Origin: an uncultured Acidobacteriota bacterium | Lineage (GTDB): Bacteria > Acidobacteriota > UBA6911 > CAINFC01 | Direction of reading: 5' to 3' | DNA: 64,000 nt | Assembly (NCBI GenBank): GCA_903847975.1 | Contig: CAINFC010000149.1 | Span: forward strand, 1-64,000 | In this document: piece after piece, positions 14,405 to 23,195 of the stretch | Numbering within the stretch: the first letter of the stretch is position 1 | Layout: every line of letters begins with the position of its first letter | Notes under the pieces: model-generated | Told to the model about the DNA's origin: nothing | Database searches by the model: none | What the model saw: only the letters and a program-made list of their open reading frames with translations | Program-made: the position numbers and the translations under genes

Positions 14405-16084
14405 CTATTTCCCCTCCGCGGCCGGTGCGGCCGGCTGATCGGAGCGGGCCAGCCGGTAGGTGTCCTCCGTGTGGCGGTGCCACAGGGCTTCCAGCTCGCG
14501 CACCTTGTCCGGCAACTGCGCCGCCAGGTTGTGCGATTCCCCGCGGTCCCGACTGAGGTCATAAAGCTCCCATTCCCCCTTGGCCGCAGCGACCAGCTTC
14601 CAGTCGCCGACCCGAATGGCGCGGTTCCCCTCGTGCAGCCACCACAGGTACTCATGCCGGACCGTGCCATCACGGCGGAAAGCGGGCAGCAGGCTTTGCC
14701 CCGGCGCCGGTGGCACGAGAGCGCCCTGCATCATGGAGGGTTTCTTTACTCCGCCGGCTTCCAAAAGCGTGGGAACAAGGTCCACCAGGTGGGCGACGTT
14801 GTGCCGCAGCTCCCCGCGAGCCTGCAGCCCGGAGGGCCAGTGAACCAGCAGCGGGGTGCTGATGCCGCCCTCGTGCACCCAGGTCTTATGGCGCCGCAAC
14901 GGGGTATTCGAGGCGCTGGACCAGCCGGGTCCCAGGCAGAGGTAGGTAGCCGCCGAACCCATCGGCGCCGCGGGATCGTGGCCGTCGCCGCGCACCATGA
15001 TTTCCGCACTGGCACCGTTATCGGAAAGAAACAGGATCAGGGTGTTGTCGAGTGCCTTCATCTCCCGGAGCTGCGCGATCACCCGTCCGATTTCCCGGTC
15101 CATGCGGTCCACCATGGCGGCATGAATGGCCATTTTCACGGCCTGGAAATTGCGCTGCGCCCCGGTCAGCTCCTCCCAGGGGAGGGGCCGGTTGATCTCT
15201 CCCGGCCCCAGCTTCTGCAGCGCGTCAGGGAAGTGATAGGGGGGGCCGACCTCCCGCTCCATGGCCGGCAGCAGGTGATGGATGATCCCCGCTTTCTTCA
15301 TCCGCTCGTGCCGCTCGGCCGACATCACGTTCCAGCCTCGCCGGTAGGAATCGCGGTACCGGTCGATGTCCGCCTGAGGGGCCTGCAGGGGAAAGTGAGG
15401 AGAAGTAAAGCAGAGGTAGTGAAAAAATGGCCGCTCCCGGTAATCCCGGGCATGCTCCTTGAGACAGGCGACCGCATGGTCCGCCGCGGCCGCCGTGACG
15501 TAATAGTCGGCGGTCTGTTCGGCCGGCTGCCCTTCGACGGTATTGCCGGCGGCCTTGAAGAAGTTGCTCTGCCCCGCCGAGCCGATATCGAAGCTCCGGT
15601 CGAAGCCGCTTTCGAGAGGCTTGCCGTCGATATGCCATTTCCCGGAGTGGTAGGTGCGATACCCGGCGCCCCGCAGCAGCTCCGAGAGCAGGGGCGCCCA
15701 GACAGGACGACGGCCGGAGGCGCCGCTGGGTACGCCGGGAACCGTGTCGCGCCGGATCTGCTGGGCGTAATAGCCGGTCATCAGCGCCCCGCGGGAGGGC
15801 CAGCAGCGTGCGGTGTTGTAAAACTGGGTAAAGCGCAGTCCCCCGGCGGCCAGGCGGTCCAGGTTGGGAGTTGAGATTTCCCCGCCGTAGCAGCCCAGGT
15901 CGGAATAGCCCAGGTCGTCGGCAACAATGACCAGGATATTCGGCGGGGCTTTTGCCGCCAGGAGCGACGTTCCGGCCGCCAGGAGAAAAAGGCACGCCAG
16001 CACCCATCCTCGCCAACGGCAGAACGGCAGGATCGTTCCGTTTTCCCGGAGGATTGCAACACCCCCATTTTCGGTTTTCTTCAT
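14405..16084 (-). CDS. Secreted sulfatase (arylsulfatase A-like)
   Basis: A 559-residue protein with a Sec-type hydrophobic segment (about 27-44, ending LLAAKA). The mature start is the sulfatase hallmark NILVIVADDLGYSDLGCYGG, whose two Asp bind calcium. The formylglycine motif is CWPSR (Cys94), so the catalytic Cys is intact and needs oxidation by a maturing enzyme. Later family features include FLSDNGA and a GDWKL segment near the C-terminus. It hydrolyses sulfate esters in the periplasm or outside the cell; the substrate is unknown. It is followed by the membrane methyltransferase gene and preceded by the metallo-hydrolase gene on the same strand. Confidence 0.9.
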   Translation of the reverse strand: MKKTENGGVAILRENGTILPFCRWRGWVLACLFLLAAGTSLLAAKAPPNILVIVADDLGYSDLGCYGGEISTPNLDRLAAGGLRFTQFYNTARCWPSRGALMTGYYAQQIRRDTVPGVPSGASGRRPVWAPLLSELLRGAGYRTYHSGKWHIDGKPLESGFDRSFDIGSAGQSNFFKAAGNTVEGQPAEQTADYYVTAAAADHAVACLKEHARDYRERPFFHYLCFTSPHFPLQAPQADIDRYRDSYRRGWNVMSAERHERMKKAGIIHHLLPAMEREVGPPYHFPDALQKLGPGEINRPLPWEELTGAQRNFQAVKMAIHAAMVDRMDREIGRVIAQLREMKALDNTLILFLSDNGASAEIMVRGDGHDPAAPMGSAATYLCLGPGWSSASNTPLRRHKTWVHEGGISTPLLVHWPSGLQARGELRHNVAHLVDLVPTLLEAGGVKKPSMMQGALVPPAPGQSLLPAFRRDGTVRHEYLWWLHEGNRAIRVGDWKLVAAAKGEWELYDLSRDRGESHNLAAQLPDKVRELEALWHRHTEDTYRLARSDQPAAPAAEGK

Positions 16085-19118: not shown

Positions 19119-20744
19119 ATGATCCGAAAGATTCCCTGTTCCTGGTCCCGCCTGGCACTGGCCGCCTGGCTTTCCGTGGCCGCCATTCAGGCCCAGACGG
19201 CGGAAGAGAAGCAGCTTGCCCGGGCCCGGGATTCGGCACGCATCGCCGGCTATTCGCTGGGCAAGGTGCAGCGCTGGCTGCGGGAAATCTGCCTGCCGGC
19301 CATCGATCCCGACACCGGGCTGTTCCGCGATTTCGGGGAGAAGACCGAGACCTGGAATTACCGCGACACGGCCGCCGACTGCTATCCCTTCGTGGTCTGG
19401 GCAGCCTACCTGACCGACACCGATGTTTTTCAGGGAGCCATGCGGCGCATCCTCCAGGCGGAGCAAAAGCTCTGCAACCGGGTCGACCGCCTGCCGGTCG
19501 ATTACAGCTTCCGCACCCGGCGCCAGGCGGAGGTGACGCCCGACCAGATGGTATTCGGGGCCAGCGAGTACGTCAAGGACGGCCTGGTGGCCATCGTGGA
19601 GCTGACCGGACGGAACGAGTGGTTCGAGCGCTACCGGGGCATCGTGGACGACCTCTTTGCCCATGCGGCCTACGACACTCCGTACGGAAAAATCCCGTCG
19701 GACAACGTGGAAGTCAACGGAGACCTCCTGCAGGCCCTGCCGCGGCTCTACACCATGACCGGAGACCGCAAATACCTGGAGTGGGCGCACCGCATCGCCG
19801 ACCGCTACCTCAAGCCCGGCGGCTTCGTGCCTGCCCGCCTTTCCGACCACGGCTGCGAGATCATCGGCGGCCTGGGGCTGCTCCTGGCAGTGGACGCCAC
19901 CGCCGACCCCCCCAAAGCAAAAGAGTACGAGCCCCACTACCGCTATATGGCCGACCAGATCCTTCTGCGGGGCACCAATTCGGACGGAATCGTCGTCGGC
20001 GACCTGCAGCCGGCCGTCGGCCCGCACGACAACGTCGTCACCCGGGACGGCTGGGGCTACGACTACGTGGGATTGCTGGACTACGACATGGCCCTGCCGC
20101 AGCCGCGCTATACCAATTACATTCGCTTTGCCATGGGCAACCTGCTCAAGCCGCGCTACCGGAATTTCAACTGGGACCACAGCTCCCGCGACAACCTGGC
20201 CGACTCCGTGGAAGGAGGATTGTACCTGCTCCAGTACCTCCCGGTGGAGGCCGCCTTTGCCTGGGCCGACCGGGAAACGGCTCTGGTCCTGGCCGACGAA
20301 GCGAATCCCGACCGGCTCTGGGAGACCCAGAAGCTGGAGGCCAACGCGGTGCGCACCGTGCTGATTCACGCCATGCTGCACACCTGCAACACCATCGCCC
20401 GGCCCTGGCGCGGCGACCTGCAGCTCGGCGCCGCCCCGCTCGACGGCGGGTTGGTGGCGGTCATGAAGGCCGAAAAAGATTACCGCGGCCTGCTGCAGTT
20501 CGACATTCCCCGGCACCGCGCCTGGTTCCGCTTCGAGAAAAACTGGCCGCGCATGAACACCATGCCGGAATGGTTTGTGGTGGAACCGGGATGCCGCTAC
20601 GCCTGGAAGGACCTGGCGGACGGCACGGACAAGGAATACTCCGGCGAGCAGCTCTCCCGGGGGATCGAGGTACGGCTGCGGGCCGGACAGATGCGCTCGT
20701 GGAGGCTGCAGCCCCTGCCGGGCGCGGGCGCAGCGCCCCGCTGA
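19119..20744 (+). CDS. Secreted protein with six-hairpin glycosidase-like fold
   Basis: A 541-residue protein with a Sec signal (about residues 10-25, cleavage near IQAQTAEE). The body shows repeated helix pairs with aromatic, Asp-rich turns (NYRDTAADCYPFVVWAAYL, NVEVNGDLLQALPRLY, YLEWAHRIADRYL). This is the pattern of (alpha/alpha)6-barrel glycoside hydrolases and epimerases. The last 100 residues are beta-rich, as in heparinase-like or unsaturated glucuronyl hydrolase-like enzymes. I cannot name a family. Catalytic residues are not assigned. It lies between a trans-sulfuration gene and a convergent sulfatase, which fits a role in breakdown of a sulfated carbohydrate, as inference. Confidence 0.6.
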   Translation: MIRKIPCSWSRLALAAWLSVAAIQAQTAEEKQLARARDSARIAGYSLGKVQRWLREICLPAIDPDTGLFRDFGEKTETWNYRDTAADCYPFVVWAAYLTDTDVFQGAMRRILQAEQKLCNRVDRLPVDYSFRTRRQAEVTPDQMVFGASEYVKDGLVAIVELTGRNEWFERYRGIVDDLFAHAAYDTPYGKIPSDNVEVNGDLLQALPRLYTMTGDRKYLEWAHRIADRYLKPGGFVPARLSDHGCEIIGGLGLLLAVDATADPPKAKEYEPHYRYMADQILLRGTNSDGIVVGDLQPAVGPHDNVVTRDGWGYDYVGLLDYDMALPQPRYTNYIRFAMGNLLKPRYRNFNWDHSSRDNLADSVEGGLYLLQYLPVEAAFAWADRETALVLADEANPDRLWETQKLEANAVRTVLIHAMLHTCNTIARPWRGDLQLGAAPLDGGLVAVMKAEKDYRGLLQFDIPRHRAWFRFEKNWPRMNTMPEWFVVEPGCRYAWKDLADGTDKEYSGEQLSRGIEVRLRAGQMRSWRLQPLPGAGAAPR

Positions 20745-20770: not shown

Positions 20771-22120
20771 CTATTTCCGGTCCACGTCCTTTTCCCAGGC
20801 CTGCAGCTCTTTCTGCAGCTGGGCCACCAGGTCGGAGCGGCTTTCGTAAAAGTTGAGGCCCTCGCTGATATCGAAGCCCAGGTTGAAAAGGTAGGGCTTC
20901 TGCGGCGTCAGGTAGAGCTTCCAGTCGTCCCGGATCACCGCCCTCTCCCTCTGCCGGCGGCCGCCGTGGCGCCAGAACAGGGCGCGCTTGGGGAGCGACT
21001 TCAGCTCGCCGAGCGCCGGCCAAAGGGAAATCCCGTCCGGCCGCAGGTCATCCGGCAGGGGGCACCCGCAGGCTTCGGCCACGGTGGGCAGAAAGTCGAT
21101 GCCCATGGCCGCTTCCATCAGGATCATGTTGGCCCGGACCCGCCCGGGCCAGAAGGCGATCGCCGGCACGCGGATTCCTCCCTCGCGCAGCATTCCCTTG
21201 CCGCCGCTCAGGTGGGCGTTGGAGCCGGGCACCCGGGCCCCGTTGTCGGAGCAGAAGAACAGGAAGGTGTCGTTCTCCAGGCCCAGCTGCTTCAGGCTTT
21301 CCATGACCCGGCCCACGGAAGCGTCCAGGGCCTCCACCATCTCGCGATAGGCATTCGCCTGGTCTTCGCGCACGCCTTCCGCCGGCCCCGCGTCCCCGGG
21401 CTTCCGGTACGCTTCGTCTTTCTTCCCCTGGTAAGGATAGTGAGCGGCCGCGTGGGAAAGGAAAAGGCAGAAGGGCTCGGCCCGGTGCTGCTCCATGAAG
21501 CGGATGCCGTGCTGGGTGATCAGGTCGGTCACATACCCTTTTTCTTCGCTGCGCCGGTCGTTGATCCACCAGTCCCGGGCGCCCTGGATGTCGAGGTGGC
21601 TGTGATAGTCGATGCTCTCGCTCAGAAAGCCGCGGAATTCATCGAAGCCCTGGCGCAGGGGGCGGGACTCCTCGGCGCCGCCGAGGAACCACTTCCCGAA
21701 TAGCGCCGTCGGATAGCCGGCCTTTTTCAGCATCCGGACGAAGGTAAACTCCCCGGGAGGCAGGGCCTGTCCCGTCAGGCTTCTGCCGGGCCCCGTTTCT
21801 CCTTCCAGCCCGAAGCGCTGCGGATAGCGCCCGGTCAGCAGCGCGGCCCGCGGCGGTCCGTCCACCGGGCTGTTGGAGTGAAAATTGTAAAAGCGCATGC
21901 CGCGCCGGGCCAGGGCGTCCAGGTGGGGCGTCCGGATATAGGTGCCGCGGAAGCACCGCAGATCCCCGAACCCGAGGTCGTCCGCCAGGATCAGGATGAC
22001 GTTCGGCTTGCGGGACTCCGGCGGACCGGCAAAGGAGCGCGAGGAGGCCACGGAAGCCGCCCAGGCGCCCGATCCGAGCATCCGGGCGAAACGGCGCCTG
22101 GTGAGCGGGCTGACATTCAT
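20771..22120 (-). CDS. Tat-exported sulfatase-family protein with degenerate active site
   Basis: A 449-residue protein. The N-terminus LTRRRFARMLGSGAWAASVA is a twin-arginine signal. The family start NVILILADDLGFGDL (metal Asp pair 47-48) and the later LFFCSDNGARVPGSN are intact. The nucleophile motif C/S-x-P-S/T-R is replaced by DGPPR (Asp87 to Arg91), so there is no Cys or Ser to form formylglycine. It may be inactive, a binding protein, or a hydrolase with different chemistry. ATG at 22120 follows AAGGATGAATGT; the longer frame upstream has no support. Its 3' end faces the secreted six-hairpin-like gene. Confidence 0.85.
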   Translation of the reverse strand: MNVSPLTRRRFARMLGSGAWAASVASSRSFAGPPESRKPNVILILADDLGFGDLRCFRGTYIRTPHLDALARRGMRFYNFHSNSPVDGPPRAALLTGRYPQRFGLEGETGPGRSLTGQALPPGEFTFVRMLKKAGYPTALFGKWFLGGAEESRPLRQGFDEFRGFLSESIDYHSHLDIQGARDWWINDRRSEEKGYVTDLITQHGIRFMEQHRAEPFCLFLSHAAAHYPYQGKKDEAYRKPGDAGPAEGVREDQANAYREMVEALDASVGRVMESLKQLGLENDTFLFFCSDNGARVPGSNAHLSGGKGMLREGGIRVPAIAFWPGRVRANMILMEAAMGIDFLPTVAEACGCPLPDDLRPDGISLWPALGELKSLPKRALFWRHGGRRQRERAVIRDDWKLYLTPQKPYLFNLGFDISEGLNFYESRSDLVAQLQKELQAWEKDVDRK

Positions 22121-22298
22121 ACATTCATCCTTGCAAGAAAATGATCGGTTGATGCTTTCCGGGAAGCCGTTCCTGACCCTTCCCTGTCCCCGTGCCATTT
22201 CCCATGCCGGTACGCGGAGACGCCTCCCACGATTATTCTAGCCCAAGAAAATTTTTTCGTCTCCCGGAAAAAGCGCTACAATTCTGCAGGAAAAGAAT

Positions 22299-23195
22299 AT
22301 GGAAAGCACATCGGAAAAGAAAACCGCCTTAACGGAAAAGGTACGGGTGGCGGCCGTACAGATGGTCTCCGGGCCGGAGGTGGCCGAAAACCTGGAAACC
22401 GCCTCCCGGCTGGTAGCCGAGGCCGCGGGCCGGGGCGCCCGGTTGGTTCTGCTCCCCGAGTATTTCGCCATCATGGGCCGCCGGGACAAGGACAAAGTCA
22501 AGGCCCGGGAGGAGGAGGGGCGCGGCCCGATCCAGGAATTTCTGGCCGCCACCGCGGCCCGGCACCGGATCTGGCTGGTCGGCGGATCGGTCCCCCTGGC
22601 GGTTCCCGAACCGGACAAGATCGCCAACAGCTGCCTGGTCTTTGACCCGCAGGGGCAAAGGGCGGCGCGCTACGACAAGATCCACCTGTTCCGCTTCCAT
22701 CTGCCGTCGGATCGCTACGACGAGTCGCTGACCATTCGGCCCGGCAGCCGGCCGGTTGTTCTGCCGACTCCCTTGGCCTCCGTCGGCCTTACGATCTGCT
22801 ACGACATACGCTTCCCCGAGCTCTACCGGGCGCTGGGGCGGATCGACCTGGTCCTGGTCCCCGCGGCTTTCACCGAAACCACCGGCCGGGATCACTGGGA
22901 AATTCTGCTCCGGGCCCGGGCCATCGAAAACCAGTGCTACCTGCTGGCCTCGGCGCAGGGCGGACGACACGAGAGCGGCCGGGAAACCCACGGCAACAGC
23001 ATGCTGATCGATCCCTGGGGAAGAATTATGGACCGCCTGGCCAAGGGGCCGGGAATCGTAGTGGGAGACCTGGACCCGGCACAATTGCAGGAGGTACGGC
23101 AGAAGCTGCCGGCCCTGGAACACCGCGTCTTTGCGGTGGAGGCCCCCGGGCCGTCCCGGGAAACGGATCCCGTCGGAAAGGGAAAAAACGGCTGA
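22299..23195 (+). CDS. Carbon-nitrogen hydrolase (nitrilase family, NIT1/NIT2-like)
   Basis: A 298-residue enzyme with the family Glu-Lys-Cys triad: LLPEYFAIMG (Glu), YDKIHLFRF (Lys) and LTICYDIRFPELYR (Cys). The whole arrangement, including DKIHLFRF and SAQGGRHESGRETHGNSM, resembles deaminated-glutathione amidase and omega-amidase (NIT1/NIT2), which repair transamination side products. Cytoplasmic. AGGAAAAGAAT precedes the ATG. It overlaps the downstream thioesterase gene by TGATG, so the two are coupled. Confidence 0.88.
   Translation: MESTSEKKTALTEKVRVAAVQMVSGPEVAENLETASRLVAEAAGRGARLVLLPEYFAIMGRRDKDKVKAREEEGRGPIQEFLAATAARHRIWLVGGSVPLAVPEPDKIANSCLVFDPQGQRAARYDKIHLFRFHLPSDRYDESLTIRPGSRPVVLPTPLASVGLTICYDIRFPELYRALGRIDLVLVPAAFTETTGRDHWEILLRARAIENQCYLLASAQGGRHESGRETHGNSMLIDPWGRIMDRLAKGPGIVVGDLDPAQLQEVRQKLPALEHRVFAVEAPGPSRETDPVGKGKNG

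Follow-up and report, generated by a model that had tools for sequence, protein, structure and literature searches.

An S1-family sulfatase homologue with aspartate at the formylglycine position, a candidate lineage-specific pseudo-sulfatase from an uncultured Acidobacteriota bacterium

Here we describe a sulfatase-like protein of 449 amino acids (P0001), encoded on the minus strand at positions 20771-22120 of the window, the 64,000-nucleotide stretch of contig CAINFC010000149.1 analysed in this work, in which an aspartate occupies the position that sulfatases convert into formylglycine. By sequence and fold P0001 certainly belongs to the S1 sulfatase family but, judged from its residues, it fails the features that define an active formylglycine sulfatase, namely the convertible Cys or Ser and the His of the GKWH motif. 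With no Cys or Ser that FGE or anSME could convert, P0001 is predicted to be unable to form formylglycine. We interpret it as a lineage-specific pseudo-sulfatase that has probably been kept to bind a ligand in a calcium-dependent manner, a reading to which we give a probability of about 0.5.

The formylglycine site of P0001 reads S-P-V-D87-G-P-P90-R91-A-A-L-L-T-G, with the pentapeptide D87-G-P-P90-R91 (21848-21862, minus strand) replacing C-[ST]-P-T-R, so that the nucleophile Cys and the Ser/Thr of the activation motif are gone while the Arg stays. The first-pass annotation had placed DGPPR exactly where sulfatases carry C/S-x-P-S/T-R, and the alignment puts it there. The motif falls outside the published catalytic signature of S1 sulfatases, [CS]-[STACGMV]-[PA]-[STAGF]-R (PMC5066984), at positions 1 (Asp) and 4 (Pro). 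A Gly at the x position is common, being present as C-G-P-S-R in other sulfatases of the same genome and also in PDB 6psm, and the true departures are therefore Cys to Asp and Ser/Thr to Pro. A third departure, absent from the first-pass annotation, is Phe145 (21686-21688, minus strand), found where GKWH has the His that coordinates formylglycine, as established for SmCS His104 and assigned here by homology (PMC5870055). This His, which serves formylglycine, is present in 81% of the SulfAtlas set and at position 145 in 29/29 close homologues of P0001, but it is not absolute across the family, since G, D, Y and other residues occur among 266 aligned members. In SmCS, the C54A substitution lowers kcat/KM about 10^5-10^6-fold or more and H104A about 10^3-fold (PMC5870055).

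The rest of the site is kept, and all eight metal and sulfate ligands (D47, D48, D292, N293, R91, K143, H227 and K308) stay in P0001. The calcium ligands Asp47-Asp48 (21977-21982, minus strand), the metal Asp pair already reported as intact in the first-pass annotation, and Asp292-Asn293 (21242-21247, minus strand) are in place in the alignment. The sulfate ligand Lys143 of GKW (21692-21694, minus strand) was assigned by homology to SmCS Lys102 (PMC5870055), the leaving-group acid His227 (21440-21442, minus strand) by homology to SmCS His201, and the partner of this acid, Lys308 (21197-21199, minus strand), by homology to SmCS Lys309.

Family membership is clear from the PF00884 score of 172 bits (cut-off 25) and from the AlphaFold2 model, which was built on a 28-sequence alignment and reached a mean pLDDT of 89.6 and a pTM of 0.89, with active-site blocks mostly above 90 and residues 1-30 at about 45-55. 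The nearest solved structures, at 30-38% identity, are S1_19 and S1_16 sulfatases (PsS1_19B 6psm/6prm; AMOR S1_16 9fo1; Pedobacter 7stt/7stv), the closest formylglycine-dependent S1 group to P0001. The whole fold superposes on them with VIA-align Z values of 49-51.5 and rmsd of 1.8-2.2 Å over 386-393 residues, the individual values being Z 51.5 and 2.0 Å over 389 residues for Pedobacter 7stv and Z 51.4 and 1.8-1.9 Å over 389-391 residues for PsS1_19B 6psm/6prm; the top Foldseek match of the model is PsS1_19B C77S. P0001 shares with these enzymes the calcium ligands and the sulfate and leaving-group residues, but differs from them in having no Cys or Ser at the nucleophile position, a Pro in the activation motif and a Phe for the formylglycine-coordinating His. 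The phosphatases, phosphodiesterases and phosphonate hydrolases of the superfamily that use a Ser or Thr nucleophile usually have a second metal site. P0001 does not belong with this group, as it carries Asp and clusters within the Cys sulfatases.

The gene starts with an ATG at 22120 preceded by AAGGA about 7 nt upstream (22128-22132), and its product begins with a Tat-type signal peptide, MNVSPLTRRRFARMLGSGAWAASVASSRSFA (22028-22120, minus strand), read by eye from the sequence and opened by twin arginines (TRRRFAR) ahead of the sulfatase domain. Codon-position GC is 0.66/0.47/0.87, much as in the neighbouring genes. Codon bias looks normal, and the frame, start codon and signal peptide are undamaged. 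The open reading frame, strand and residue numbers given in the first-pass annotation were all correct, as was its mention of a normal CWPSR sulfatase some 4.7 kb away on the same strand; this canonical S1 neighbour lies at 14405-16084 (minus strand), 4.69 kb from P0001, and does not share an operon with it. By gene order P0001 is monocistronic, and no operon partner was found, the flanking genes being convergent (19119-20744, plus strand) and divergent (22299-23195, plus strand). The convergent gene encodes an exported protein of 541 amino acids that matches nothing in Pfam or NCBIfam and nothing significantly by sequence in the PDB, and whose sequence has a helical-repeat look resembling alpha/alpha-barrel carbohydrate enzymes.

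To place the substitution within the family, P0001 was compared with its relatives. The closest are G000:C38 (47% identity), G012:C197 (45%), G000:C214 (44%) and the Gemmatales protein L064 (47% over residues 21-353), all with C-S-P-T-R and GKWH, and no closer relative than these was found in 38 class genomes or in a 396-genome phylum sample, comparison sets made up of genomes from outside the genus and family of the source genome. The first of them, a paralogue from the same genome (G000:C38:16122-17390), matches P0001 over residues 20-446 and has in common with it the substrate-side motif IDYxSHxDxxGxxDWW and an intact pocket, but is canonical at both sites. In a maximum-likelihood tree P0001 falls within a well-supported (100/99) clade of canonical Cys sulfatases in which its exact sister position is poorly fixed, and its branch measures 0.93, compared with 0.53 for the C38 paralogue and 0.46-0.55 for 3 of 4 neighbours. 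Across the 266 aligned members the nucleophile column contains C in 252, S in 10, T in 2 and D in 2. The source genome (8.13 Mb) encodes about 75 proteins with a sulfatase domain, FGE-type domains also being numerous in it (28 match rows), and among the sulfatases fetched from it about 70 have Cys, one phosphodiesterase-like protein has Thr and only P0001 has Asp.

No orthologue keeping the Asp was found among the sulfatases of the source genome, the 38 class genomes or the 396 phylum genomes. Recurrence of DGPPR in related genomes, the check proposed in the first-pass annotation, was addressed by this alignment and by scanning DNA, and a second sulfatase with the motif did not appear. The pattern D-x-P-[STPA]-R...TG gave 10 matches in the 396 phylum genomes, P0001 being the only sulfatase among them, and a slightly looser pattern gave 28 matches and no sulfatase in 294 genomes of the phylum of Planctomycetes bacterium Pan216; these patterns require Arg as CGN and miss Ser as AGY, so that Asp variants coded with AGR or AGY escape them, as the Pan216 protein considered below did. 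Since all close homologues found carry canonical C-x-P-S/T-R, the Asp change is limited to the P0001 lineage.

Two further paralogues in the source genome have altered active sites. L220 (G000:C244:771-2060) keeps its Cys in C-S-P-S-R but has D48 changed to N, GKWH changed to GKWN and Gly at the Lys308 position, and from its sequence it is possibly a second pseudo-sulfatase with a different lesion. L214 (G000:C63:25000-27200), which also keeps the Cys, has by alignment an Asn in place of the second metal Asp and a Leu where P0001 has Lys308.

How P0001 departs from its homologues bears directly on whether it is merely decaying. An alignment with 29 homologues contains 50 positions that are invariant to 96% or more, and P0001 keeps 46 of them, the four changes being C87D, T90P, G119A and H145F. 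Three of these four make up the formylglycine module, that is, the converted residue, the Ser/Thr of the activation motif and the formylglycine-coordinating His. Four random hits on 50 sites would include all three module residues with p = 0.0002 and, given the change at C87, T90 and H145 would both fall within the remaining three with p = 0.0026, values to be taken as a guide and not as a strict test because the module, while drawn from known chemistry, was defined after viewing the P0001 sequence. Simple random decay is thus a poor fit, and the concentration of changes in the module argues that selection went on acting on the scaffold, calcium site and sulfate pocket once the formylglycine machinery no longer served a purpose. 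A defect that is local only, the outcome that the first-pass annotation had set against its own proposal, holds in so far as the change belongs to this lineage alone, but a random defect is unlikely with the formylglycine module as the target.

We propose that in this lineage the gene of a canonical exported formylglycine-dependent S1 sulfatase was duplicated or diverged, and that the whole module would then have been swapped (Cys87 to Asp, motif Thr90 to Pro and His145 to Phe) with the fold, calcium site and sulfate pocket kept. The folded protein would be exported by Tat and would bind Ca2+, with Asp87 as the ligand that replaces the formylglycine diol; the old substrate pocket may hold a sulfated glycan, or a similar anionic one, without cleaving it, and the role of P0001 would be that of a binding, sequestering or partner subunit. 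Native PsS1_19B holds calcium, and its formylglycine-less C77S variant binds intact kappa-neocarrabiose in the conserved sulfate subsite (PMC6923384). P0001 resembles this engineered protein and the C69A and C69S variants of arylsulfatase A in being a sulfatase fold without a working nucleophile, and differs from them in that those are laboratory Ala or Ser mutants, whereas its Asp is natural and the partner His is replaced as well. A literature search for natural pseudo-sulfatases found nothing on point. Against a binding role, the Asp87 carboxylate would lie directly under the sulfate and could push it away if calcium did not balance the charge, there is a single sequence with no Asp orthologue to show conservation over time, the longer branch also fits relaxed constraint, and neither a partner gene nor an operon hints at a role. 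Between the two readings offered in the first-pass annotation, the binding pseudo-enzyme comes out better supported, and different chemistry has no positive evidence.

The strongest competitor, which we regard as unlikely, is that P0001 is a recently inactivated paralogue heading for loss, in which redundancy among about 75 sulfatases allowed decay and the rest of the protein is intact because little time has passed. The large redundant family, the singleton status of a motif that no orthologue keeps, the longer branch and the damaged active site of the C244 paralogue are all consistent with such a gene, but it would have to take three changes, amounting to at least five bases, in the formylglycine module against 1 of the 47 other near-invariant sites, and to do so with frame, start, signal peptide and codon bias intact.

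A re-tooled hydrolase is more doubtful. Here Asp87 would act as the nucleophile, through an acyl-sulfate or acyl-phosphate intermediate, or as the general base for direct attack by water, and calcium, K143, H227 and K308 would remain functional. Every other catalytic ligand is indeed kept, and Asp evolved at this site on at least two occasions in distant clades, accompanied in both proteins by an aromatic residue at 145: the Planctomycetes bacterium Pan216 protein L135 (L135:7830-9239) has D-A-A-S-R and GRWY. P0001 and this protein are alike in the natural Asp at the nucleophile position and the aromatic replacing His, but the Pan216 protein sits in a distant clade and has lost further catalytic residues. 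The tree spoke against common descent of the two Asp proteins. By alignment L135 carries K143R and H227K, whereas L266, the paralogue closest to it in that genome, is canonical; the separate clade, the greater loss of ligands and the canonical paralogue together mark it as an independent event, and the loss of K143 and H227 resembles degeneration, which speaks against hydrolysis. Tyr at 145 also occurs in some Cys-type members of the 266-member alignment and, with only two Asp cases, the pairing of Asp with an aromatic 145 is a hint only. Moreover, the literature search gave no precedent for an Asp nucleophile, and compared with the formylglycine diol Asp is longer by one carbon. To our knowledge, the nucleophiles of the alkaline-phosphatase superfamily are Ser, Thr or formylglycine, which counts against this alternative. 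The broader idea that the sulfatase fold has a second catalytic state, which carries Asp plus an aromatic for His, evolved independently on at least two occasions and uses the Asp without formylglycine as nucleophile or general base on phosphate or sulfate esters, is speculative and less probable again.

Finally, that a sequencing, assembly or binning error masks a normal C-x-P-S/T-R is very improbable even for an assembly of 326 contigs, because relative to the codons of the C38 paralogue (TGC/ACC/CAC) the changes C to D, T to P and H to F take five or more base substitutions, none of which breaks the frame, and a base-calling slip would have to become several independent multi-base errors in two places about 170 bases apart with no frameshift.

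A pseudo-sulfatase of this kind bears on how the family is read in genomes, as automatic annotation labels every PF00884 protein a sulfatase and P0001, as far as its residues tell, cannot be activated in the usual way; sulfatase-rich bacteria possibly hold further PF00884 proteins that are likewise beyond usual activation. P0001 is probably an isolated variant within a very common family, and a conserved Asp lineage or any activity dependent on Asp87 would sharply raise the significance of this singleton. Ester hydrolysis by P0001, if it occurs, would mean a new nucleophile for a well-studied superfamily, and retained binding of sulfated glycans, if confirmed, would make it a natural example of a sulfatase that has become a binding protein.
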